Of a stretch of 64,000 bases of DNA, positions 1,590 through 20,691 are shown piece by piece (within the stretch, counting starts at the first letter, position 1; every line of letters begins with the position of its first letter). The position numbers and the translations under genes are program-made. This DNA comes from Alkalicaulis satelles (lineage in GTDB: Bacteria; Pseudomonadota; Alphaproteobacteria; Caulobacterales; Maricaulaceae). The notes under the pieces were generated by a model. The model saw only the letters and a program-made list of their open reading frames with translations. It did not search any database and was not told the DNA's origin. The DNA lies in NCBI RefSeq assembly GCF_008630495.1, contig NZ_VWOJ01000005.1:1-64000 (forward strand). Reading direction: 5' to 3'.

Positions 1590-2846
1590 ATGACATCGCT
1601 GACGCTGGACCGGGACGAAAACGCCGTCCTCGACTGGATCGAGGGCGAGGGGGACGCCATGGCGGCGCTGGTCAAGCGCTGGTCGGCGATCAATTCGGGC
1701 AGCCGCAACGCCGATGGTCTTGAAGCCATGCGCGCCGAGTTGGAAACGGCTTTCGCGCCGCTGGAGGGTGAAATCCGCGCGGTGGAGCTCAAGCCCTCCC
1801 TGACGGTGGAGGTTGATGGCGAGCTGCGCGAGGTGGCCTATACGCCCGCCTTCCGCCTGACCAAACGGCCCGATGCGCCGGTGAAGATCGTCCTGACCGG
1901 CCATCACGACACGGTGTTCCCGCCCGGCTCCGGGTTTGATGAGTGGCGCATGCTGGACGAGGACACCATCAACGGGCCGGGAACCGCCGACATGAAGGGC
2001 GGGCTGATCGTCATGCTGCACGCCCTGATGGGGCTGGAGCGCAGCCCCTGGGCCAGTGAAATCGGCTATGACTTGCTGATCAGCCCGGACGAGGAGATCG
2101 GCTCGCTGGGCTCCGGCCCGGTGCTGGCCGAGCTGGGCGCCAAGGCCCATGTGGGCATGACCTATGAACCGGCCCTTGTGGACGGCTCGCTGGCGGGCGC
2201 GCGCAAGGGCTCGGGCAATTTCTCCCTGCGCTGCCGGGGCCGCGCAGCCCATGCGGGGCGGGAGCATCATCTGGGCCGCAACGCCATCGTGGCCGCCGCC
2301 GATTTCGCCCGCCAGCTTGACGCCCTCAACGGCCAGCGCCCGGACGTGACCTTCAATGTCTCGCGCATTGACGGGGGCGGAGCGCCCAATGTGGTGCCGG
2401 AGCTGGGCATTTGCCGCTTCAATGTGCGCGTGAAGACCGAGGATGACGCGGTGTGGGCCAAGCGCGAGATCGATGCGCTGGTCCAGCGCGCCAATGCGCG
2501 CGACGGCATCACGGCCGACCTGCATGGCGGCTTCACCCGTCCGCCCAAACCAATGAGCCCGGCCAATTTGCGCATGTTCGAATGGACCCGCGCGGCCGGC
2601 GAGCCGCTGGGCCTGGACATTCGCTGGAAGGACACCGGCGGGGTGTGCGAAGGCAATAATCTGTGGGCGTCGGGCTGTCCGAATGTGGATACTCTGGGCG
2701 TGCGCGGCGCCGATATTCATTCCAGCCGCGAGATCGCCAAGCTCTCCAGCCTGCCCGAGCGCGCCCGGCTCTCGGCGGTGATGCTGATGCAGTTTGCGCG
2801 CGGGCGCTTCGACGCCGCCGAGGCGCGGGCCTTGGCCAAGGGGTAG
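1590..2846 (+). CDS. M20-family metallohydrolase, candidate N-succinylglutamate desuccinylase of the AST operon
   Basis: A 418-residue di-zinc M20 amidohydrolase. Metal and catalytic residues are visible: GHHDTVFP (His105, Asp107), GTADMKGG (bridging Asp134), SPDEEIGS (Glu168 as base, Glu169 as ligand) and DIHSSRE (His377). The dimerisation lid lies between the two halves of the catalytic domain. The family includes DapE, ArgE and CPG2. It is the first gene of a tight run with astA, astD and astB, and no astE (M14-type desuccinylase) is present. Because DapE removes N-succinyl groups with the same fold, I infer that this enzyme releases glutamate from N-succinylglutamate. Ordinary peptidase or acetyl-deacylase activity remains possible. 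Confidence 0.85.
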   Translation: MTSLTLDRDENAVLDWIEGEGDAMAALVKRWSAINSGSRNADGLEAMRAELETAFAPLEGEIRAVELKPSLTVEVDGELREVAYTPAFRLTKRPDAPVKIVLTGHHDTVFPPGSGFDEWRMLDEDTINGPGTADMKGGLIVMLHALMGLERSPWASEIGYDLLISPDEEIGSLGSGPVLAELGAKAHVGMTYEPALVDGSLAGARKGSGNFSLRCRGRAAHAGREHHLGRNAIVAAADFARQLDALNGQRPDVTFNVSRIDGGGAPNVVPELGICRFNVRVKTEDDAVWAKREIDALVQRANARDGITADLHGGFTRPPKPMSPANLRMFEWTRAAGEPLGLDIRWKDTGGVCEGNNLWASGCPNVDTLGVRGADIHSSREIAKLSSLPERARLSAVMLMQFARGRFDAAEARALAKG

Positions 2847-2866
2847 GGCGGGGACAAGGGGGTTTC

Positions 2867-3892
2867 ATGCTGGTGGTGCGCGCAGCCCGGTCGGGCGATG
2901 TGGACGGATTTCTCAAACTGGCCGGCGCCGCCGGGCCCGGCTTCACCAGCCTCGCCCTGCCCGATGACGCCCTGGCGGCCAAGCTCGCCGCGTCCGAAGC
3001 CGCCTTTGACGGGCGCCTCTCCGATCCGTGCGACTGCAGCTACCAGCTCATGCTCGAAGACACCGAGACCGGCGCGATCCTGGGCACCTCGGCGGTGAAG
3101 GCCATGGTCGGGATCAAGAAGCCGTATTTCGACTTCAAGATATTCACCTTCGCCCAGGCCTCCAAGGAAGCGAACCGGCGTTTCGACATGGACGCCATGC
3201 TGCTGGTCAATGATTTCGCCGGCTCCACCGAGGTGGGCTCGCTGTTCGTCAGCGATGAGGCGCGCGGCGCCGGGGCGGGCAGCCTGACCGCCAAGGCGCG
3301 CTACATGCTGGTGGCGTCCGCGCGCGAACGCTTCGGCAAGCGCATCCTGTCCGAATTGCGCGGCGTGGTGGACGAGAAGGGCGATTCCATCTTCTTCGAA
3401 CATGTCACGCGCCCCTTCTTCAAGATGAGCTTTGAAGAAGCCGACCGGCTCTCGGCGGCCACCGACAACCAGTTCATCCTGGACTTGATGCCGTCCCATC
3501 TCATCTATCTCGACCTGTTGCCGCGCGAGGCCCGCGCGGTGATCGGCAAGACCCATCCCCATGGGGTGAACGCCCTGCGCCTGCTGGAGGCCGAGGGCCT
3601 GCGCTATGAGCGCTATATCGATATTTTCGACGGCGGCCCGCTGGTCTCTTGCGGGACCGATGAGGTGCGCACCATCCGCGACAGCCAGCGTGTGAGCGTG
3701 GCGGACGGACCGCTCGGGGGCGGGCGCGTGCGCGCGCTGGTCTCCAACGATCGCATTGGCGATTTCCGCTGCATCTACGCCGACATCACGCCGGGCGAGG
3801 GCGCTGCGGCGCTGAGCCCCGAAGCCTGCCGCGCGCTGGATGTGACGGCGGGCGAGCCTGTACGCATCTGGACCAAGGACACTGTGTCATGA
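2867..3892 (+). CDS. astA: Arginine N-succinyltransferase
   Basis: A 341-residue enzyme of usual AstA length that transfers succinyl from succinyl-CoA to the alpha-amine of arginine, the first step of ammonia-producing AST catabolism. Recognisable features are the N-terminal LVVRAARSGDVDGF GNAT-like start, the central EVGSLFV strand followed by the ARGAGAGSLTAKARY acyl-CoA loop, and the LSELRGVVDEKGDS / FFEHVTRPFF block typical of the family. The ATG at 2867 follows a purine-rich stretch (GGGGACAAGGGGG); an upstream in-frame start at 2663 would add sequence overlapping the M20 gene. The stop overlaps astD by 4 bp, implying translational coupling. Confidence 0.93.
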   Translation: MLVVRAARSGDVDGFLKLAGAAGPGFTSLALPDDALAAKLAASEAAFDGRLSDPCDCSYQLMLEDTETGAILGTSAVKAMVGIKKPYFDFKIFTFAQASKEANRRFDMDAMLLVNDFAGSTEVGSLFVSDEARGAGAGSLTAKARYMLVASARERFGKRILSELRGVVDEKGDSIFFEHVTRPFFKMSFEEADRLSAATDNQFILDLMPSHLIYLDLLPREARAVIGKTHPHGVNALRLLEAEGLRYERYIDIFDGGPLVSCGTDEVRTIRDSQRVSVADGPLGGGRVRALVSNDRIGDFRCIYADITPGEGAAALSPEACRALDVTAGEPVRIWTKDTVS

Positions 3893-5343
3893 GCGGATCG
3901 CTCTATATCAACGCCGCCTGGCGCGAGGGCGCGGGCGCGCCCTTCACCTCCCTCAATCCGGGCAGCGGCGAGGTGGTATGGGAAGGCGCAGCCGCAGACG
4001 CCCATGATGTGCGCGCGGCGTTCGCCAGCGCCCGCGCGGCCTTCGCGGACTGGGCGCTGGCCGGGTTCGAGGCGAGGAAGGCCGTGGCCGAGCGCTTCGC
4101 TGGCCTCCTGAAAGAGCGCAGCGAGGCCATCGCCGAGCTGATCGCGCGCGAGACTGGCAAGCCGCTGTGGGAGTCGCGTACCGAAGCGGGCGCCATGACC
4201 GGCAAGATCGCCGTCTCCATCGCAGCCTATCTGGACCGCACCGGAACCACGCGCACCGCCACCGATTTCGGCGAGCAGACGCTGGAGCACAAGCCGCTGG
4301 GCGTGATGGCGGTGCTGGGGCCGTATAACTTCCCCGGCCATCTGCCCAACGGCCATATCGTCCCGGCCCTGCTGGCCGGAAATACGGCGGTGTTCAAACC
4401 GTCTGAACTGACCCCGGCCGTGGGCGCCTTCATGGCATCGCTGTGGGACGAGGCGGGCCTGCCCGCGGGCGTGCTCAATCTCGTTCAGGGCGGGCGCGAG
4501 ACCGGCGCGGCCATGCTCGATGACCGCGATCTCGACGGCGTGTTGTTCACCGGCTCCTGGGGTGTGGGCTCTTTCATCCATAAAAAATTCGCCGGGCGCA
4601 CCGGCATCCAGCTGGCGCTGGAGATGGGCGGCAATAACCCGCTGGTGGTCTGGGACGCCGCCGACGCCGAGAACGCCGCGCGGGTGGCGGTGCTGTCGGC
4701 CTATATCACGGCGGGCCAGCGCTGCTCCTGCGCGCGCCGCCTGATCGTGCCGCAAGGAGCGGCCGGTGATCAGGTGATCGAGGCCATCGCCGCCCTGATC
4801 GCCAGACTGCCCATCGGCGCCTGGGATGCGAGCCCCGAACCCTTCATGGGCTCGCTGGTCAGCGCCCATGCCGCCGATCAGGTGCTGAAAGCCCAGGACC
4901 AATTGCTGGCCTCTGGCGCGCGCGCCATCGTCAAGGCGAAGCGCGGGCAGGGCCCCGCCTTCGTCACCCCCGGCCTGATCGATGTGGACGGGATCGAGAC
5001 ACCCGACGCGGAAGTGTTCGGCCCGCTTTTGCAGGTGCGCCGCGCTGCGAGCTTCGACGCCGCTATCGCCGAGGCCAATAACACCGCCTATGGCCTGGCC
5101 GCCGGGCTGGTCAGCGATGACTCGGACCTGTGGCCGCGCTTCCGCGCGCTGGTGCGCGCGGGCATCGTGAACTTCAACCGGCCCACCCCCGGCGCGGCCT
5201 CCACCATGCCCTTCGGCGGTCCCGGCCAGTCGGGCAATCTGCGCCCCAGCGCGTATTACGCGGCCGATTATTGCGCCTACCCCGTGGCGGCCCAGGCCGC
5301 GCCGGCGCTGATGCGCCAGGCGATCAAGGGGCTGGATGCATGA
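3889..5343 (+). CDS. astD: N-succinylglutamate 5-semialdehyde dehydrogenase
   Basis: A 484-residue NAD(P)-dependent aldehyde dehydrogenase oxidising succinylglutamate semialdehyde to succinylglutamate, the fourth AST step. Landmarks are GPYNFPGHLPNGH with the AstD-type substrate loop, the FTGSWGVG nucleotide loop, LALEMGGNNP carrying the general-base Glu, and AGQRCSCARR with Cys279 as probable nucleophile. ATGA overlaps tie it to astA (4 bp) and astB (4 bp). Assignment to AstD rather than a generic ALDH rests on these loops and the operon. Confidence 0.93.
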   Translation: MSGSLYINAAWREGAGAPFTSLNPGSGEVVWEGAAADAHDVRAAFASARAAFADWALAGFEARKAVAERFAGLLKERSEAIAELIARETGKPLWESRTEAGAMTGKIAVSIAAYLDRTGTTRTATDFGEQTLEHKPLGVMAVLGPYNFPGHLPNGHIVPALLAGNTAVFKPSELTPAVGAFMASLWDEAGLPAGVLNLVQGGRETGAAMLDDRDLDGVLFTGSWGVGSFIHKKFAGRTGIQLALEMGGNNPLVVWDAADAENAARVAVLSAYITAGQRCSCARRLIVPQGAAGDQVIEAIAALIARLPIGAWDASPEPFMGSLVSAHAADQVLKAQDQLLASGARAIVKAKRGQGPAFVTPGLIDVDGIETPDAEVFGPLLQVRRAASFDAAIAEANNTAYGLAAGLVSDDSDLWPRFRALVRAGIVNFNRPTPGAASTMPFGGPGQSGNLRPSAYYAADYCAYPVAAQAAPALMRQAIKGLDA

Positions 5344-6692
5344 GCGGCGCGGTAGAAGCCAATTTCGACGGGCTGGTCGGCCCGACCCATAATTATGGCG
5401 GGCTGGCGCCGGGCAATCTGGCCAGCGCGAAAAATCGCGGCTCGGTCGCGCGCCCGCGCGACGGGGTGATCGAGGGCCTGGCCAAGGCGCGCAGCCTGGC
5501 CGATGCGGGGCTGGCTCAAGGCATTTTGCCCCCGCAGGAACGCCCGGACATCCCGGCCCTGCGCGCGCTGGGCTTTGCGGGGGCCAGCGATGGCGCGGTG
5601 TGGGAGGCGGCCTATAAGGCCGCGCCGGAACTGGCGCTGAACATGCTCTCGGCCTCGTCCATGTGGGCGGCCAATGCGGCGACCGTGTCGCCGGGCGCCG
5701 ATACGTCCGACGGACGGGTGCATTTCACCCCGGCCAATCTGGTCACCGCCCTGCACCGCTCCATCGAGCACGCCCAGACCGGGCGGGCGCTGGCGCGCAT
5801 CTTTGCTGACGAGGACCGATTTGAGGTCCATGGCGCGCTGCCCTCCCAATCCCATTTCGCTGATGAGGGCGCGGCCAATCATGTGCGCCTGTGCGCTGAT
5901 CATGGCGCGCCGGGGGTGGAGATTTTCGTCCACGGGCGCGATGCGTTCGAGGACTGGCAGGCGAAATTTCCCGCCCGCCAGACCCTGCAGGCCTGCCAGG
6001 CGGTGGCGCGCCGCCATGGGCTCGATCCGGCCCGCACCGTCCATATCCGCCAGTCGCGCAAGGCCATCGAGGCGGGCGCGTTTCATAATGATGTGGTGTG
6101 CGTGGGGACGGGGCCGGTGCTGTTCTATCACGAGCATGCGTTCGAGGACCGGGACGCGGCGCTCGCCGCCATCCGCAAGGCCGCTGACGGGCTGTTCGAG
6201 CCGGTGTTTGTGGAGGTCCCCGACGCCGAGGTTCCGCTCAGCGACGCCATCACCTCCTATCTCTTCAACTCCCAGCTCCTGATCTGGCCGGGCGAGGGGC
6301 GTCAGGTGCTGCTGGCCCCCAAGGAGACCGAAGAGACCGGCTCCACCCGCGCCTATTGTGAGCGCCTGACGGCGGGCAACGGCCCCATCGGGGCGGTGCG
6401 CTTCGCCGATGTGCGCCAGTCCATGCGCAATGGCGGCGGGCCGGCCTGCCTGCGCCTGCGGGTGGTGCTGGATGAGGCCCAGCGCGCCGCGGTCAATCCG
6501 CGCGCCTGGCTGACGCCGGAACGCCATGAGGAGCTGACCGCCTGGGCCAACGCCCATTACCGCGAGACGCTGGCGCCGGACGATCTGGGCGATCCCGCCC
6601 TGGTGGACGAGAGCCGCGCCGCGCTGGACGCGCTGACGCAGATTTTGGGGCTGGGATCGGACTTCTATCCATTCCAAAGAGCCGGGGCCTGA
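5340..6692 (+). CDS. astB: N-succinylarginine dihydrolase
   Basis: A 450-residue enzyme of the amidinotransferase/pentein fold that converts N-succinylarginine to N-succinylornithine, CO2 and two ammonia. The pentein catalytic set is visible: Glu176 in DEGAANH, His249 in AFHNDVV and Cys370 in GGGPACLRLR. The N-terminus FDGLVGPTHNYGGL is highly characteristic. ATG at 5340 overlaps the astD stop by 4 bp and fits the family length; a longer frame upstream lies wholly inside astD. Its stop abuts the convergent stop of the PagL-like gene with no visible terminator. AstC (succinylornithine transaminase) is not in the window, and a biosynthetic ArgD elsewhere may serve. Confidence 0.95.
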   Translation: MSGAVEANFDGLVGPTHNYGGLAPGNLASAKNRGSVARPRDGVIEGLAKARSLADAGLAQGILPPQERPDIPALRALGFAGASDGAVWEAAYKAAPELALNMLSASSMWAANAATVSPGADTSDGRVHFTPANLVTALHRSIEHAQTGRALARIFADEDRFEVHGALPSQSHFADEGAANHVRLCADHGAPGVEIFVHGRDAFEDWQAKFPARQTLQACQAVARRHGLDPARTVHIRQSRKAIEAGAFHNDVVCVGTGPVLFYHEHAFEDRDAALAAIRKAADGLFEPVFVEVPDAEVPLSDAITSYLFNSQLLIWPGEGRQVLLAPKETEETGSTRAYCERLTAGNGPIGAVRFADVRQSMRNGGGPACLRLRVVLDEAQRAAVNPRAWLTPERHEELTAWANAHYRETLAPDDLGDPALVDESRAALDALTQILGLGSDFYPFQRAGA

Positions 6693-7259
6693 TTACCGAC
6701 CGAAACGGTAGCCCAGCCGTACACCCACCTCGTCCAGGGCCTGGTTGCGGCCATTGCCCAGGATCTGGCCGTGGGAATAGTGCTCGTAGAACACGCCCAC
6801 GCGCCACTGGTCGGTGAGGGCGTAATCGGTCCCCAGGCGCATGTGGAACAGGGTGCGCGAGCCCAGCGCGGCGCGGGTGGAGGCCAGACGCAGGCGCTCG
6901 GGATCATCGGGCGGCAGGTGGGCGAAGTCCTTCACTCCGTCATTATACGAGATGCCGAAAGAGCCCTCGACCGAGAAACGCTCGGTCAGACCACCCTCCC
7001 AGGCCAGTCCCGCCGCGCCCAGATTGGTGAGCCCTGCGGTGTTGAACGAGCCCATCAGATAGGGCCGGGGCGAGAACGCCCAGCTGAGGAAATCGGGGCT
7101 GTCAAACAGCGCCTCGACCACGATCTGCACCCCGTCCTCGGTGCCGTTATAGACGTCATGGGCGGCCACCCCGGCGCGCAGCTCGCTGAGCTGGGCGTGG
7201 GCGGGCGCTGCGACCGCGCAGGCGATCAGGGCGCTGGACGCGAGCAGGGCAAGGCGCAT
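6693..7259 (-). CDS. Acyloxyacyl hydrolase / PagL-like lipid A 3-O-deacylase
   Basis: A 188-residue outer-membrane beta-barrel with a signal peptide (cut near APAHA-Q, residue 22). PagL enzymes remove the 3-O acyl chain of lipid A. The C-terminus contains YEHYSHG and ends LGYRFGR, with the terminal aromatic-x-x pattern of barrel proteins. His160 and Ser162 match the His-x-Ser catalytic pair; the acid would be Asp176 or Glu177, two or three residues further on than in the Pseudomonas enzyme. It lies alone between converging astB and an AT-rich gene. Family call is good, but activity is unproven. Confidence 0.75.
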   Translation of the reverse strand: MRLALLASSALIACAVAAPAHAQLSELRAGVAAHDVYNGTEDGVQIVVEALFDSPDFLSWAFSPRPYLMGSFNTAGLTNLGAAGLAWEGGLTERFSVEGSFGISYNDGVKDFAHLPPDDPERLRLASTRAALGSRTLFHMRLGTDYALTDQWRVGVFYEHYSHGQILGNGRNQALDEVGVRLGYRFGR

Positions 7260-7398
7260 GGTGAAGTCCCCCGGAAAAGAAAATCTGGCGCGAATCTAAG
7301 GTGCTTGCCGCGCGGCGCCTAGCGGGGATTTTCGGGGCGGGGCTCAGCCGCGTTCAGTGGGCTTTTTGTATTATGCGGACATCACGAATCTACAAAGA

Positions 7399-8304
7399 AT
7401 GTCATGGCGTCGCCGAACGAGGTTTTCATTGGACAAGTACCAAAAATACTGGCCTGGCATAGTGGTTGCTGGCGTTGTTGTGCTGTTCGTTATCGCGAGT
7501 TTGGTGCCTATTTATCAATTGCGTTTGGGTTCGAATTTTCAGGCAATTTTTGAGTCTGATGACATAAAGCGAAAGCTCGCCTTATGTGCAGAGGTTGAGA
7601 GCCAAATTGAAGAAGTTTCCTGCCAGATTGAGGTGTTGCGGTCGGACGGCCAACTCCAACAATCCGCTTTTCTGGCAAGAATTCAGCGCGACTCGGCAGC
7701 ATTTACTAAAGGTCTGATGTTAGCAGGGTTCGTTGGGTTGCTACTTTCTGGTGTTGGTATTTATTTGATTTTCCAGACCTTTCGTGAAACTCGGAATTTG
7801 GCTGCGGACACAAGGCGAATTGGTGAGGCGCAAGTTCGACCATATTTGCACATAAGTGACCTGTCAGTAAAAGTCACCAGAGATGGTCGATTGGTTTTTG
7901 CGTTAAAATGCAAAAATACTGGACTTTCCCCAGCATATGATGTGATTGCCTCACTTGGGTTTGATAGTTCGGAGTTGAAGCTCGGAACTTTGTATGCAGA
8001 ATTCGGCACATTGCCATCCCAAACTGAATTTACAAGAGAGATTAGGCTTAAGGATGAGCTGTTTACAGGGGAAAAGCTCGAATACGATAAAACAATAGCG
8101 GTTGATTTGGTTTTATTTTATAGGAGTATTTTTTCTTCGAAAAATGGGCTCGATGGGTATTTCTCATATCGATTGCGGGTTCTGAATAAATCGGGGAGGC
8201 TGAGAGCGGCAATTGGACACAAACCCACATTAAGTAAGGGATACATCAATAAGCGCTGTTTATTGCATTTAAAGGCCTACGAGATAGCAAAGGAAGGCGA
8301 TTAA
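7399..8304 (+). CDS. Orphan two-helix membrane protein, AT-rich
   Basis: Function unknown. Counted from a GTG at 7357, which gives 315 residues, the protein has a basic N-terminus, a membrane segment at about 33-53 (YWPGIVVAGVVVLFVIASLV), a loop of 65 residues with a coiled-coil tendency, a second helix at about 119-140, then a soluble C-terminal domain starting VRPYLHIS that looks beta-rich. TM-TM plus an R-[AP]-Y strand recurs in hypothetical proteins of proteobacterial accessory regions. The start is unclear: ATG 7399 has a poor ribosome site, while TTG 7429 is preceded by CGAGG. Base composition and codon use are clearly AT-richer than both neighbours, suggesting transfer. Confidence 0.7.
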   Translation: MSWRRRTRFSLDKYQKYWPGIVVAGVVVLFVIASLVPIYQLRLGSNFQAIFESDDIKRKLALCAEVESQIEEVSCQIEVLRSDGQLQQSAFLARIQRDSAAFTKGLMLAGFVGLLLSGVGIYLIFQTFRETRNLAADTRRIGEAQVRPYLHISDLSVKVTRDGRLVFALKCKNTGLSPAYDVIASLGFDSSELKLGTLYAEFGTLPSQTEFTREIRLKDELFTGEKLEYDKTIAVDLVLFYRSIFSSKNGLDGYFSYRLRVLNKSGRLRAAIGHKPTLSKGYINKRCLLHLKAYEIAKEGD

Positions 8305-8314
8305 TTTTGATCAT

Positions 8315-9133
8315 TTATATGCAGTAAATCAGCCGCGCAGTCAGATAGCCCAGCACCTCGCGCGCGGCTTCAAATGTCGGCTGGCCGTCGGCGGCGATGA
8401 GGTCCCGGGTTAGGACCGCATGGGGGAAGGGATTGCCCCCGGGGTTCTTGGCCTCGTCGGGCAGGACGCGGGTGAGGGCGCGCTCCGGGCCGATGAGATC
8501 GGTGAGGGCGGCGAAACGCTCGGCCTTGCACGAGGGGTCGCCGTCAAAGCGCAGCGCCATGACCGGCAGGTCCGCGCGCGCTTTCAGCCCCTCGGCCTCG
8601 TCGCGCGACAGATGCAGCCCGCCCGGATTGTTGAACGGCACGGCGGGCTCGGCAGCCACGGCGGCCTGAACGCTGGGCTCCACCGCCACCGACCAGGCGA
8701 AATTGCCCGACAGGCACAGCCCCACCGCGCCCACGCCCGGCCCGCCGCACTCGGCGTGAACCTGACGGGCCAGCGCGCGCAGCCAGTCGGAGACCGGGCT
8801 GCCGCCCTCGCGCGCGAACAGGCGGATCTCTCTGGAGACGCAGGCGCGCGCCATGCCGCCCACGCGGCCATGCAGGGCCAGCACCTCTTCCAGCGCGCTG
8901 CCGGCGGGGTCCAGATAGGCCGGGGCATAGACCCGGAATCCCGCCGCCTCGATCCAGCGCGCCAGGCGCCAGAATTCGCTCACAAAGCCGGGCAGTTCAT
9001 GCATCAGAATGACGCCCGGCCCGTGCCCGCTGGCCAGCACCGGATGGGCCATGCCGGCGGCCTCGAAATCGAACATGTCCTCGAACGGCGTGCGGTTGTC
9101 CGTATGGAGGATGTCGGCGAAGGGCTGGGGCAT
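8315..9133 (-). CDS. Dienelactone hydrolase family protein
   Basis: A 272-residue alpha/beta hydrolase. The DLH triad is apparent: Cys140 in AVGLCLSGNF as nucleophile, Asp197 in LRFDGDPSC and His238 in NPFPHAVL. The oxyanion strand VILMHELPGF fits the DLH group. The family opens the lactone ring of dienelactones, but many bacterial members act on unknown esters and no aromatic-degradation genes are nearby. The start at 9133 is chosen because AAGGA lies 8 bases before it on the minus strand; an earlier ATG at 9169 would run into the intergenic hairpin. It converges with the AT-rich membrane protein gene, the two stops being about 10 bp apart. Confidence 0.85.
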   Translation of the reverse strand: MPQPFADILHTDNRTPFEDMFDFEAAGMAHPVLASGHGPGVILMHELPGFVSEFWRLARWIEAAGFRVYAPAYLDPAGSALEEVLALHGRVGGMARACVSREIRLFAREGGSPVSDWLRALARQVHAECGGPGVGAVGLCLSGNFAWSVAVEPSVQAAVAAEPAVPFNNPGGLHLSRDEAEGLKARADLPVMALRFDGDPSCKAERFAALTDLIGPERALTRVLPDEAKNPGGNPFPHAVLTRDLIAADGQPTFEAAREVLGYLTARLIYCI

Positions 9134-9150
9134 GGGGGCGTCCTTGGAAG

Positions 9151-9182
9151 GGCCGGGCGGCGGGATCATTCCCCGCCCGGCC
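9151..9182 (-). terminator. GC-rich hairpin between clpB and the DLH gene
   Basis: Inverted repeat GGCCGGGCGGCGGGA / TCCCCGCCCGGCC with a short loop, lying between the clpB stop and the downstream start. It lacks a T tract, so it may attenuate rather than fully terminate. Confidence 0.5.
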
Positions 9183-9197
9183 CTCCAGGTAAAGCGC

Positions 9198-11813
<2,616 letters not shown>

Positions 11814-13693: not shown

Positions 13694-14101
13694 TCAGTCC
13701 CCCAGACGCGGGCGCAGGCCCGAGAGGTCATAGCCCGCATTGGCCGCGCGCGCGATGATGTCGTCCCCGCTCATCTCGCCAGCCTGGCCCAGCGCCCACA
13801 GCACGGTGCAGCGCGTGCCGGTGCGGCAATAGGCCAGCGTCTTACCCTGCGCCGCCGCCGCCTTGAAGCCGTCCACGGCGTCTTTGGTGAACTGCCCGCC
13901 CGAGACCGGGATATGCACATAGGTCAGCCCCGCCGCCTCGGCCAGCGCCTGCAGGTTCGCCGCCTCCGGCTGTCCGGGATCCTCGCCGTCAGGCCGGTTA
14001 TTGATGATCACGTCAAAGCCCGCCTCGGCGGCGGCCTTGATGTCCTCGGCGCTGATCTGGGGGCTGACCGAGAGCTGGTCAGTGAGCGGTCTGGGGGTCA
14101 T
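13694..14101 (-). CDS. TIGR01244 / DUF442 sulfurtransferase-phosphatase-like protein
   Basis: A 135-residue protein of the DUF442 family, with a protein-tyrosine-phosphatase-like fold and an AYCRTGTRC loop near residues 94-102 carrying the reactive Cys. Other visible family marks are VIINNRPDGEDPGQP and YVHIPVSGGQFT. In bigR/blh-type operons this domain is linked to hydrogen sulfide oxidation next to rhodanese, SulP/TauE or persulfide dioxygenase genes. Here it is coupled (5 bp) to a SulP transporter, supporting a role in sulfur-compound handling with export or import of the oxidised anion. No BigR regulator or dioxygenase is in the window. GGAGACC provides the ribosome site. Confidence 0.85.
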   Translation of the reverse strand: MTPRPLTDQLSVSPQISAEDIKAAAEAGFDVIINNRPDGEDPGQPEAANLQALAEAAGLTYVHIPVSGGQFTKDAVDGFKAAAAQGKTLAYCRTGTRCTVLWALGQAGEMSGDDIIARAANAGYDLSGLRPRLGD

Positions 14102-14229
14102 GGCGGTTGGTCTCCATGGATGTGGAGCGGAAACTATGTCGTCCCACTCATACGCCGCCGGGCAAGTGGCGTCGACCAGCCCGGCTCACAAGGGCGTCAC
14201 AGCGCCGCAGGGGGCTATCCTATGGGGTG

Positions 14230-14257
14230 TTGACATACCTCCATACCTCTATACTAT
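14230..14257 (+). promoter_or_regulatory. Sigma-70-type promoter for the SeqA/RAMA-like gene
   Basis: A consensus -35 TTGACA (14230-14235) is followed by TACTAT (14252-14257, 16-bp spacing) or the better-scoring TATACT at 14-bp spacing. It lies 25-50 bp before the ATG at 14283, so the leader would be very short. Confidence 0.6.
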
Positions 14258-14278
14258 CTGACTGTCAGATATGGAGGT
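14237..14278 (+). promoter_or_regulatory. Nested inverted repeats over the promoter and ribosome site (candidate autoregulatory operator)
   Basis: ACCTCCATA (14237-14245) is mirrored exactly by TATGGAGGT (14270-14278), and a second pair ATCTGA / TCAGAT (14256-14261, 14265-14270) lies inside. The outer right arm contains the GGAGGT ribosome site, so the element could act as a protein operator or as an RNA hairpin hiding the start. Confidence 0.5.
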
Positions 14279-14282
14279 CTCT

Positions 14283-15041
14283 ATGCGTTCGATTGAGGTT
14301 TCTACCGATGTTTTTGCGAAGATTTGGGCGCTCAGGGCGCCCTGTGAGGACTCGGAGGATCAAATTCTGCGAAGGGTTTTGAGCTTCACAGACCCAGGTG
14401 CTCCAAAGACAATTAGCGGGCAGCTGTCAAAGGGAGGAGCCGTAGGATTCTATGACTCTAGGCACGATGTCCGCTTTCCTGAGGGTTTCGAGGTGTCGCG
14501 AACATACCTCGGAGTCAATTATAGCGCCCAAGCGCAAAATGGTGTGTGGCGGCTGCAAGGAGACAGTCGCGCATATCGGAGTCTGAACAGCTTAAGCCGT
14601 GCGATAGGAGCTAAGACGGAGAATGCCTGGATCAACTGGTTCTACCTTGACGAAGCTGGAGTGCGCCGCCCGGTTTCTGACTTGCGGAAACCCGAAACTG
14701 TGGCAGCGCGACACGCACCGCAGACTATGAATGCTGGCGAGGACACCAAGCCAGTCATTGATGAGTCAGAGAAAACTGACGGGGAAGAGCGGGTAACTTG
14801 GCGTGACGATGTGCAGTCAGCACTTTCGCGCCTTGGCGGGCGCGCATCGCTGGCTCATATCTATCAGGAAGTCGAGAAGGCCCGTGGCGCGGCTCGCCGT
14901 TCCTTGCCGCGCACACTGGAAGCGACAGTGCGCAAAACTCTAGAGGAGCATTCGTCTGACTCACACAATTATCGTGGCGGGCCCGATTTGTTCTTTATGC
15001 CAGAGGGAAAAGGTGCAGGTATCTGGGCTTTGCGGGAATGA
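14283..15041 (+). CDS. Orphan protein: SeqA-like RHH + RAMA-like domain + restriction-associated winged helix
   Basis: A 252-residue protein. Residues 1-35 (MRSIEVSTDVFAKI ... EDQILRRVL) resemble the ribbon-helix-helix oligomerisation arm of SeqA. Residues 68-122 (FEVSRTYLGVNYSAQ, SLNSLSRAIG, NAWINWFYL) resemble RAMA/DUF4357-type modules found beside restriction-modification enzymes and thought to read modified DNA. Residues 170-252 (ALSRLGGRASLAHIYQEVEK, LEATVRKTLEEHSSDS, GPDLFFMPEGKGAGIWALR) match the winged-helix tail seen in many restriction endonucleases and HNH proteins. No nuclease or methylase motif is visible. GGAGGT five bases before ATG 14283 decides the start over ATG 14271. AT-richer than its neighbours. 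Domain calls are from pattern memory, not a search. Confidence 0.6.
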   Translation: MRSIEVSTDVFAKIWALRAPCEDSEDQILRRVLSFTDPGAPKTISGQLSKGGAVGFYDSRHDVRFPEGFEVSRTYLGVNYSAQAQNGVWRLQGDSRAYRSLNSLSRAIGAKTENAWINWFYLDEAGVRRPVSDLRKPETVAARHAPQTMNAGEDTKPVIDESEKTDGEERVTWRDDVQSALSRLGGRASLAHIYQEVEKARGAARRSLPRTLEATVRKTLEEHSSDSHNYRGGPDLFFMPEGKGAGIWALRE

Positions 15042-15052
15042 GCACCTGATCC

Positions 15053-15997
15053 TCAAACCCCCAACCCCTCAAACTCCGGCAGGTCCAGCGCCAGGGCGAG
15101 GTTCTGCATCGCCTGGACGGCGGCGCCTTTGAGAAGATTGTCCAGCGCGCACACGATCACGGCCCGGCGTCCGTCAGCGGTCAGAGACAGCCCGCCCAGC
15201 ACCGCGCCGGGGATGTTCGCCCCGTCTGTGATCTCCGGTATGGCGTCTGTGAGGCGGATCAGCGGCTCGCCCTCATAGGCCTTCGCGTACGCCGCGCGCA
15301 GATCCGCTTCGCTCACGGGCGTTTTGAATTCCAGCTGGGCGGTCATCACAATGCCGCGGAAGAAGGCCGCCACATGGGGGCTGAAGCGCACTTCGTGGCC
15401 GAGATGCCGGCTCATCTCGCGCTCATGGATATGGCCTGTGAGCGTGTAGGGCATGAGATTGTCTTTGAGCGCGGCAAGATCATTCTTGCGGCTGGGCGTG
15501 GTGCCCGCGCCGGAATAGCCCGACACGCCGAACAGATGGGCCGGGCCGGACAGCCATGGGCGCACCGGCGCCGTGCACAGCTGCCCCGCCGTGGCGTAGC
15601 AGCCCGGATTGGAGATGCGCCGCGCGCGCTTCAGCCGCTGGCGTCCATAAATCTCCGGCAGGCCATAGGCCCAGCTGTCGTCAAAGCGGTAATCGGCGGA
15701 AAGATCGACCAGCACGATGTCCGGCGCGGCGGCCTCAAACGCGGCGACATAGGCTCCCGCCTCGCCATTGGGCATGGCCAGGATCACGGCGTCCGCCCCG
15801 CGCGCGGCGCAGGCTTGCGCGTCCAGCGCTTCAAACTCCAGCCCGTCCGGCGCTTCGGGCGCCAGATCGCGCACCGGCTTGCCGGCCATGGCGCGCGAGA
15901 CGGCGAAGGTCAGGCGCATGTCGGGCCTGCGCGCGATCAGGGCGATCAGCTCACGGCCCGTATGGCCGCGCGCGCCAACGAGGCCGACGGTCTTCAT
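15053..15997 (-). CDS. argC: N-acetyl-gamma-glutamyl-phosphate reductase
   Basis: A 314-residue NADPH-dependent reductase making N-acetylglutamate semialdehyde, the third step of arginine synthesis. The N-terminal GLVGARGHTGREL is the dinucleotide loop, Cys133 in ISNPGCYATA is the thioester nucleophile, and HIHEREM plus SPHVAAFFRGI belong to the catalytic C-terminal domain. The start overlaps the stop of the upstream NAGS/K gene by 4 bp, so the two are coupled. The family also covers LysY-type enzymes, but the context settles the call. Confidence 0.93.
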   Translation of the reverse strand: MKTVGLVGARGHTGRELIALIARRPDMRLTFAVSRAMAGKPVRDLAPEAPDGLEFEALDAQACAARGADAVILAMPNGEAGAYVAAFEAAAPDIVLVDLSADYRFDDSWAYGLPEIYGRQRLKRARRISNPGCYATAGQLCTAPVRPWLSGPAHLFGVSGYSGAGTTPSRKNDLAALKDNLMPYTLTGHIHEREMSRHLGHEVRFSPHVAAFFRGIVMTAQLEFKTPVSEADLRAAYAKAYEGEPLIRLTDAIPEITDGANIPGAVLGGLSLTADGRRAVIVCALDNLLKGAAVQAMQNLALALDLPEFEGLGV

Positions 15998-19527: not shown

Positions 19528-20691
19528 TTATAGGGCCTCGAACGCATCAATAATTTTTTCGACGTGCGCCACAATAATTTTGAGTGTAGACACAACTTCA
19601 TGCCCGGCAAAATCCCCAGAATCATCAAAAACCACTTGGAAAAAAGGGGGAAGATCATCCTCAATATCTAAATGTATAGGAATTCCAGTGTCAAGTATTT
19701 CTCCAGTCTCTAATTTAACAAACGCACTATCTATATCTCGCATAAGATAAATCCCTTTCTTTGGGTTGATGCGCATTGTTGCTTGTACCGCTTGCCCAAA
19801 AATAAGAATGATTAATTTATGCTTATCTATAATATCTAAGTTGTGCAATCCTCGAAGAATGGAGGTGTCGCCGACTTTTGGGCTGCCTCCAGCATAAGGA
19901 TTAAAGGTTTTAAGGAGTTCCACAGCCCTATCGCCGGCACGGGTAAACTTATTTTTCTTTATTAATTCCGGAAGTGATTCCTCGTTAATCGCAATAGGGA
20001 AGTATACTCCTTTTCCATTGCCATGGTTTTTTTCTGCCATCTGCACTGCAACATGATCAAGCGCCGATCTGGCATTGTGGATCGCATCCCCAATCATAGC
20101 TGGTAATATTTCAGGAGGGGGGTGAAGCACATCTATATATCGAGTATAGTGAGAAAATGAATCTGGCTTTCTATAAACTCTATAGGGTTTGGAATTTCTA
20201 TAGTCATCTAATGTTGACTCAATTTCTTTAATATGCGACCTTGCCCTTGCAGCCTTAACCCGTGCGGAGCTTATTTGTGTGGGTATGGGCTCAGATATAG
20301 GATAAAAATCAGGGTTTTCATTGTTCTCATCGAGCTCAATTGAGCAATAATTAACGCTGTAAACCGGAGGGTAGATCAGTTCTGCAATTAATAACCCCTG
20401 AGAGTGCACTCTAATATATTTATTAAGATTATATTCGACAGCTATTGAAAAATTTCCAGATCCGTTAAGTTTTACGGGCATAGATGAAAGCTTAATCACA
20501 TATTCTGACGGAAATATAAGTACGAAATTGAAAATATTTTTCTCTTGTGTTATAAAAAGAGAGCAAGCTATATTTCGAAATATGTTTATGGCCAAACCTA
20601 TGGGAACTTCATCATATATCTTCCCGAGGCGCGGCTGAACGGTCAGTTTGCGTGATTTGTATATCAAGTTTTTTGAAAAAACTGTATCCAT
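19528..20691 (-). CDS. Orphan AT-rich protein with HEPN-like R-x4-H motif
   Basis: A 387-residue protein of unknown function. Its composition (AT-rich, many Ile/Asn/Lys codons) is wholly unlike the GC-rich flanks. The N-terminal 140 residues look like a beta-rich module. From about 143 (ARVKAARARSHIKEIE) to the end it resembles a hypothetical family with conserved GDAIHNARSALDHVA (residues 201-215) and IDKHK (288-292). Arg208-Ser-Ala-Leu-Asp-His213 has the R-x4-6-H spacing of HEPN ribonuclease domains, commonly found in toxins and phage-defence proteins. No nucleotidyltransferase antitoxin partner is adjacent. The ribosome site is weak. Confidence 0.65.
   Translation of the reverse strand: MDTVFSKNLIYKSRKLTVQPRLGKIYDEVPIGLAINIFRNIACSLFITQEKNIFNFVLIFPSEYVIKLSSMPVKLNGSGNFSIAVEYNLNKYIRVHSQGLLIAELIYPPVYSVNYCSIELDENNENPDFYPISEPIPTQISSARVKAARARSHIKEIESTLDDYRNSKPYRVYRKPDSFSHYTRYIDVLHPPPEILPAMIGDAIHNARSALDHVAVQMAEKNHGNGKGVYFPIAINEESLPELIKKNKFTRAGDRAVELLKTFNPYAGGSPKVGDTSILRGLHNLDIIDKHKLIILIFGQAVQATMRINPKKGIYLMRDIDSAFVKLETGEILDTGIPIHLDIEDDLPPFFQVVFDDSGDFAGHEVVSTLKIIVAHVEKIIDAFEAL

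Follow-up and report, generated by a model that had tools for sequence, protein, structure and literature searches.

The Locus and Its Features

The DNA analysed, referred to here as the window, was a stretch of 64,000 nucleotides comprising positions 1–64,000 (forward strand) of Alkalicaulis satelles contig NZ_VWOJ01000005.1 (assembly GCF_008630495.1). Within it, a single gene for a 252-residue protein lies between a BLH_phosphatase gene and argC, together with a promoter and a candidate operator of its own. The features considered are as follows, with the basis for each in parentheses.

14218–15058, no strand: single-gene insert of ~0.84 kb with approximate edges, flanked by the BLH_phosphatase gene and argC (empty-site alignment, low GC and GC3)
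14230–14235, + strand: −35 hexamer TTGACA (TTGAC invariant in five aligned promoters)
14236–14249, + strand: candidate operator, tandem TACCTC-CA-TACCTC with an 8-bp period, in the −35/−10 spacer (14-mer shared with the upstream regions of homologs L002 and L012)
14252–14257, + strand: −10 hexamer TACTAT (promoter search)
14255–14271, no strand: inner perfect palindrome TATCTGAC-T-GTCAGATA (not conserved, probably incidental)
14267–14278, no strand: second arm of an outer inverted repeat, holding the Shine-Dalgarno-like GGAGGT at 14273–14278 (repeat search)
14283–15041, + strand: gene for the SeqA_N-RAMA-winged-helix protein (252-residue ORF, full-length homologs)
14283–14390, + strand: residues 1–36, SeqA_N-type ribbon-helix-helix (RHH) (profiles, Foldseek)
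14445–14690, + strand: residues ~55–136, RAMA domain, DUF4357/DUF2924-like (profiles, predicted structure, Foldseek)
14787–15038, + strand: residues 169–252, winged helix common to HNH endonucleases (tblastn, Pfam on relatives, Foldseek)

An in-frame ATG at 14271 is an alternative start that would give a protein of 256 residues. At 14160–14215, upstream of the phosphatase-SulP genes, the aligned members of the genus share a conserved block around CACAAGGGCGTCAC, possibly a regulatory site of those genes.

A Single-Gene Insertion

The gene is a single-gene insertion, probably acquired horizontally. The empty site was found in four genomes of the genus (G001, G006, G011, and G012), in which the gap between argC and the BLH_phosphatase gene is about 120 bp, compared to 951 bp in the window. 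These four were among 14 other genus genomes surveyed, none of which had the full gene; a weak partial match with a stop in G012 was not counted. In eight of the remaining nine genomes argC was located but the ~1.5 kb retrieved did not contain the phosphatase gene; no argC was found in the ninth (G004). The composition of the ORF was lower in GC than its surroundings, as originally noted (0.556 versus 0.658 and 0.646 in the 10-kb flanks), and its GC3 was 0.55 versus 0.83–0.88 in five nearby genes. Of the 65 GANTC sites in the 64-kb window, seven fall within 14283–15041; outside the insert the window looks GANTC-depleted, which fits a recent arrival. Elsewhere in the window, the ORF at 19528–20691 is also low in GC (GC3 0.34) and is probably a second foreign gene. 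In a further member of the genus (G013, at 660–1319 of the fetched locus), another single-gene insert, a DUF1993 gene, occupies the same argC/BLH_phosphatase junction, which may be an insertion hot spot.

Three full-length homologs were identified in other genomes, two of them (L001 and L002) in one search and the third (L012) in G184, with identities of 51–56%. The full-length form is rare: among 99 genomes sampled it was present only in the window's own, and among 385 genomes of the class only in that genome and G184. No phage protein resembled the full 252-residue protein at E 0.1, and viral contigs searched with this single protein gave no match. The homologs likewise lie among ordinary genes: L012 is flanked by HIT-domain and FAD/aminomethyltransferase genes, L001 by an aldolase gene and one with a class I methyltransferase domain, and L002 by YqeY and GidA/TrmFO-type genes. 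None of the four full-length genes has a restriction gene beside it, the window gene being flanked by BLH_phosphatase and argC, and no mobile-element genes were detected next to the four, as scanned or seen. The window genome does have a type I locus elsewhere on the same contig. This host locus (2767–9258 of the fetched region) carries, between hsdS and hsdM, a gene with T5orf172 plus a cold-shock domain.

Domain Composition of the 252-Residue Protein

Alone, the 252-residue protein matched nothing in Pfam, PADLOC, PHROGs, or NCBIfam (E up to 10), and a search of PDB sequences with it gave nothing useful, so that every domain assignment runs via its relatives. By this route, the three-part architecture that had been proposed from the sequence was recovered from profiles, from Foldseek and from the HNH-linked winged helix. 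The arrangement of SeqA_N, RAMA, and winged helix is real and new. As had also been claimed, the protein has no nuclease or methylase part that we could detect, and an endonuclease domain was absent by Pfam scan, predicted structure, and Foldseek.

Evidence for the N-terminal part came from A3, a profile of 13 N-terminal modules. Against solved sequences A3 gave seven matches at E ≤ 10, led by two SeqA entries (1xrx, 1.9e-4; 3fmt, 7.5e-4). It matched 57 of 349 genomes of the phylum, with many matches beginning at position 1 and stopping near 40–75, and these included genes for proteins with SeqA_N plus the SeqA C-terminal domain (four judged SeqA by eye, two of two scanned confirmed by Pfam). 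The Pfam SeqA_N model itself matched three of the 13 A3 members (best 1.2e-4) and, weakly, a few other relatives, all under the curated cut-off; the best score among the scanned members of A3 and A4 was 21.8 of 23 bits. One relative (L115) also matched the RHH-like models DUF7557 and VAPB_antitox. The C-terminal domain of SeqA (PF03925) had no Pfam match in the window protein at E ≤ 10.

Assignment of the middle region to RAMA followed from several comparisons. PF18755 (RAMA) matched four of the 13 A3 members at E ≤ 1 (best 4.5e-8), DUF4357 and DUF2924 matched three each, and a relative on a Rhodococcus plasmid passed the RAMA cut-off (51.5 bits). The first profile matched the tail of a CcrM-like methylase (3.3e-4, in the 385 class genomes), and a profile comparison of A3 with the RAMA tails of three proteins, two being CcrM-type enzymes, gave a probability of 96.5%. 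In the window genome, PF18755 at E up to 10 found only the genome's own CcrM, which has a RAMA tail, indicating that the RAMA domain of the window protein is too diverged for direct detection.

Analysis of the C-terminal region by tblastn against plasmids identified eight records, seven of which match the C-terminal part, and four are annotated as HNH endonucleases; HNH was confirmed by Pfam in all three such proteins scanned. Two further C-terminal matches appeared methylase-like by eye, with Pfam support that was not significant (0.073 and 0.28). The winged-helix match was present in 6 of the 349 phylum genomes. Neither the profile searches nor the best 50 of 312 Foldseek matches included a DpnI-type counterpart of the winged helix. 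Against PDB sequences, a lectin repeat (3jqh; 1.8e-4 and 0.0025) was the best match of the winged-helix profiles and was taken as chance; the second of these profiles also gave forkhead chains, weakly.

An AlphaFold2 model from 19 sequences had a mean pLDDT of 83.2 and a pTM of 0.47, so the single domains are predicted confidently and their mutual arrangement is not. Foldseek matches of this model, which were assigned to domains by length and description, placed CcrM (6pbd) first and fourth, with forkhead winged helices making up most of the best 50 of 312; the N-terminal domain of SeqA (1xrx) came at rank 41 (probability 0.98, TM 0.78 by target, 34% identity over 35 columns). No E value among the 312 was below 0.001.

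Promoter and Candidate Operator

The promoter TTGACA-16-TACTAT scores 10 of 12, and 2 such sites occur in 14000–15200 versus 0.3 in shuffles, in keeping with the consensus-like promoter originally described. The promoters of the window gene, L002, and L012 have TTGACA followed by TACCTCCATACCTC in common, and ATGGAGGT before the start of the window gene is also found upstream of these two homologs. In three of the four full-length genes the tandem TACCTC-CA-TACCTC lies between −35 and −10. The exact 14-mer occurs a single time in each of the genomes G000, G184, and G783, always directly ahead of the full-length gene. The whole genome of L001 (G784) has no exact 14-mer; upstream of L001, GAGGTA occurs three times at 10–11 bp spacing. 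The element is a convincing candidate, as judged by sequence, for a self-operator.

Nested inverted repeats covering the promoter and ribosome-binding site had been predicted, and they do exist, the first arm of the outer repeat (14237–14248) overlapping the tandem TACCTC repeat. The conserved element, however, is that tandem repeat. The inner palindrome was rejected as an operator, since nothing corresponding to it lies a short way upstream of any of the three full-length homologs. Genome-wide, it has its exact copy and only three sites with 3 mismatches. The 64 kb contain 15 inverted repeats with perfect arms of at least 8 bp and a loop of at most 4, so the inner palindrome is not exceptional. 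A separate palindrome, at −36 to −13, stands upstream of one short relative (L004). A genome-wide regulon via the tandem motif was likewise rejected: the own genome has no second copy of the 14-mer at up to 1 mismatch, and the 1-mismatch copies in the other three genomes were at control level.

Shorter relatives of the protein, with SeqA_N and RAMA only, often carry other tandem repeats with the same 8–9 bp spacing. We compared 16 upstream regions of the family (set 1; 90 bp each, 6-mers, 1000 shuffles), for which it should be borne in mind that offsets 8–9 had been noticed before testing and that the three TACCTC promoters are homologous. A 6-mer repeat was present at offset 8 in four and at offset 9 in six, together in 9 of the 16, versus an expectation of about 0.3 per offset; 0 of 1000 shuffles reached either count, and no other offset from 5 to 30 was above 2. 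A second set of eight upstream regions, two of which (L110 and L111) had already been inspected, had the repeat in 3 of 8 with 6-mers (0.29 expected, p 0.0025) and in 3 of 8 with 5-mers (1.02 expected, p 0.072). Upstream regions of other ORFs served as controls and had it in 5 of 84, including 2 of the 25 AT-rich ones. Pooling gave 12 of 24 versus 5 of 84 (Fisher 3.2e-6), an optimistic value as discovery and test data are merged. The remaining upstream regions (7 of 16 in set 1, 5 of 8 in set 2) have no 8–9 bp repeat, and several of the repeats fall outside a recognisable −35/−10 spacer.

RHH repressors such as MetJ typically use tandem sites of ~8 bp. The window gene would combine a predicted RHH domain with a tandem candidate operator at its own promoter, and the self-regulation that had been suggested for it is well supported at the level of sequence. 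We hold the domain make-up together with autoregulation to be quite likely.

The original prediction had further suggested a reader of modified DNA, with CcrM-type GANTC methylation as an example. At the operator this was not borne out: no GANTC or GATC starts in 14102–14282, and such sites were dismissed as part of the operator. The associated idea, a SeqA-like cell-cycle factor binding CcrM-methylated or hemimethylated GANTC, draws on the SeqA_N and RAMA homology and on a genome that encodes a CcrM with a RAMA tail. Against it, the promoter has no GANTC, the DNA-binding C-terminal domain of SeqA is absent, and, with the full gene in just one genome of the 15 from the genus, the protein is not a core partner of CcrM. 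We regard this explanation as highly improbable.

Shorter Relatives and Their Gene Context

The shorter relatives comprise only the first ~135–150 residues (SeqA_N-RAMA). They are more widespread than the full-length form and occur on plasmids, in phages, and in viral contigs. Gene context was assessed at 20 loci (L007, L009, L036–L043, L110, L111, L114–L118, and L128–L130). A partial match without an annotated gene (L119) and a match of 28% coverage (H22) were outside this count, nor were genomes taken to carry the family when A3 matched nothing in them beyond SeqA-like, DUF2924-like, or other RAMA proteins.

At 6 of the 20 loci (L009, L130, L007, L036, L117, and L118) the neighbours include genes for restriction or methylation, an uncontrolled count that is only suggestive. 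The description of the gene as an orphan accordingly holds for the four full-length genes seen and not for these six. At L009 (G098), the relative lies 104 bp before the first of a set of HsdS-like, HsdM, HsdS, and HsdR genes, on the same strand. The neighbours at L130 are HsdS, HsdR, and YgjP by Pfam and HsdM by eye. Listed by genome or element, the neighbours of short relatives are type I restriction genes in G098 and G803, an N6-methylase and a specificity gene on a Rhizobium plasmid, McrC and OLD/UvrD-type genes in G383, DUF499 and an annotated DUF1156 on a Rhodococcus plasmid, and a D12 adenine methylase in a Rhizobium phage. The other loci were near recombinases (L038, L110, and L115) or housekeeping genes.

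The G098 arrangement brings to mind a controller that has lost its system, that is, a regulator of a restriction operon, comparable to C proteins, that is now on its own, has just its own gene to control, and does not truly read modification. The type I locus on the window's own contig and the single occurrence of the 14-mer (≤1 mismatch) in the genome fit such a history. The full-length genes, however, stand alone in all four lineages and yet have kept all three domains at 51–56% identity. Such retention speaks for a role of their own, and we consider a stranded controller unlikely.

Alternatively, the protein might coat incoming or host DNA and block restriction, or replication in the manner of SeqA, with autoregulation holding its level low. 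A SeqA_N-type multimerisation part, several DNA-binding modules, and relatives on mobile and viral DNA would suit this role. The lack of mobile-element genes next to the four full-length genes and the lack of a match to any known anti-restriction family (Pfam, PADLOC, PHROGs, NCBIfam) speak against it, making DNA masking very unlikely.

At one locus (L039, 9321–10977), the SeqA_N-RAMA gene ends 26 bp before a HEPN_Swt1-like gene (PF18731, 1.3e-5, below cut-off), and the two are possibly a regulator-effector pair. At L129 (G611, 8421–8768), a PemK/MazF-type toxin gene lies about 280 bp after a SeqA_N-RAMA gene. An antitoxin-like RHH protein whose toxin-antitoxin module has been split, or a restriction enzyme that has decayed and lost its nuclease, could be envisaged from that 26-nt spacing before the HEPN_Swt1-like gene, from the VAPB_antitox match of one relative's N-terminus (7.6e-4), and from a winged helix that is common to HNH nucleases. 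No toxin gene, though, lies beside the four full-length genes, whose frames are intact and conserved in four lineages with the operator kept, so that this origin appears decidedly unlikely.

Comparison with Known Systems

SeqA (SeqA_N PF17206 plus SeqA PF03925) resembles the window protein in the N-terminal ~36 residues by profile and structure; the window protein differs in having RAMA and a winged helix instead of the C-terminal GATC-binding domain. The N-terminal domain of SeqA multimerises and its C-terminal domain binds DNA, so SeqA_N similarity alone is no proof of operator binding. The RAMA fold and its conserved NxW..W motif are shared with CcrM and MPND (PF18755); the window protein differs from these in that its RAMA is not fused to a methylase or peptidase. 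According to PMC9963953, the RAMA domain of CcrM contacts the DNA backbone, backbone contact is reported for MPND also, and MPND RAMA binds double-stranded DNA with no preference for 6mA.

The winged helix is the same as that of the wH-HNH endonucleases, in which it is fused to HNH domains; the window protein, unlike these and the 6mA-sensing wH enzymes, has no nuclease, and DpnI winged-helix homology was not detected. According to PMC11037411, DpnI-type and HhiV4I-type winged helices serve a number of nuclease fusions as readers of 6mA, and fusions with RAMA are named there as potential readers. DUF3780-RAMA fusions occur in BREX-related systems, according to PMC12839542.

Tandem ~8-bp repeats at the promoter of the window gene are reminiscent of MetJ-type tandem-repeat RHH repressors, with the differences that the window protein is of another family and its operator binding is predicted from sequence. 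Controller (C) proteins of restriction systems are of the HTH type. The G098 relative is like them a small regulator gene before restriction genes, whereas it has RHH-RAMA instead of HTH, and the window gene has no restriction neighbours. No description of such a SeqA_N-RAMA protein was found in titles and abstract openings, a scope outside which lie most subscription journals and preprints; an earlier mention elsewhere is possible.

Proposed Function

Taken as a whole, our reading of the window protein as a solo, acquired, autoregulated DNA-sensing regulator is, on balance, somewhat probable. Repression, the reading of modification, and the coupling of the two are what we infer. The N-terminal RHH would pair two chains, and such pairs may bind side by side on the 8-bp tandem TACCTC-CA-TACCTC between −35 and −10, shutting off the protein's own promoter. 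RAMA and the winged helix would be further DNA-contacting modules, of kinds known from the CcrM methylase and HNH nucleases, which most likely sense the modification state or the presence of other DNA. When modified or foreign DNA is engaged, the protein might be drawn off its operator, or might coat that DNA. The part of this proposal that concerns reading of modification is tentative.

Beyond HTH controller proteins, the means by which defence genes detect modified DNA, and by which restriction operons come to be switched on safely, are only partly understood. A family in which a SeqA-type module is combined with reader-type modules, under a short operator of its own, opens these questions to direct testing with one small protein and one 55-bp DNA. 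More doubtfully, we speculate that the SeqA_N-RAMA(-winged-helix) proteins form a class of autorepressors, so far undescribed, that sense methylation: the RHH part would occupy tandem 8–9 bp operators, and unusual DNA, sensed through the RAMA and winged-helix parts, would release them. If this speculation is correct, the shorter members would gate restriction operons and the full-length one would act alone. The SeqA_N-RAMA family ties the N-terminal domain of SeqA to restriction biology. A 67-residue stand-alone RHH ORF in G748 (1453–1656 of the fetched locus) resembles the N-terminus of this family.
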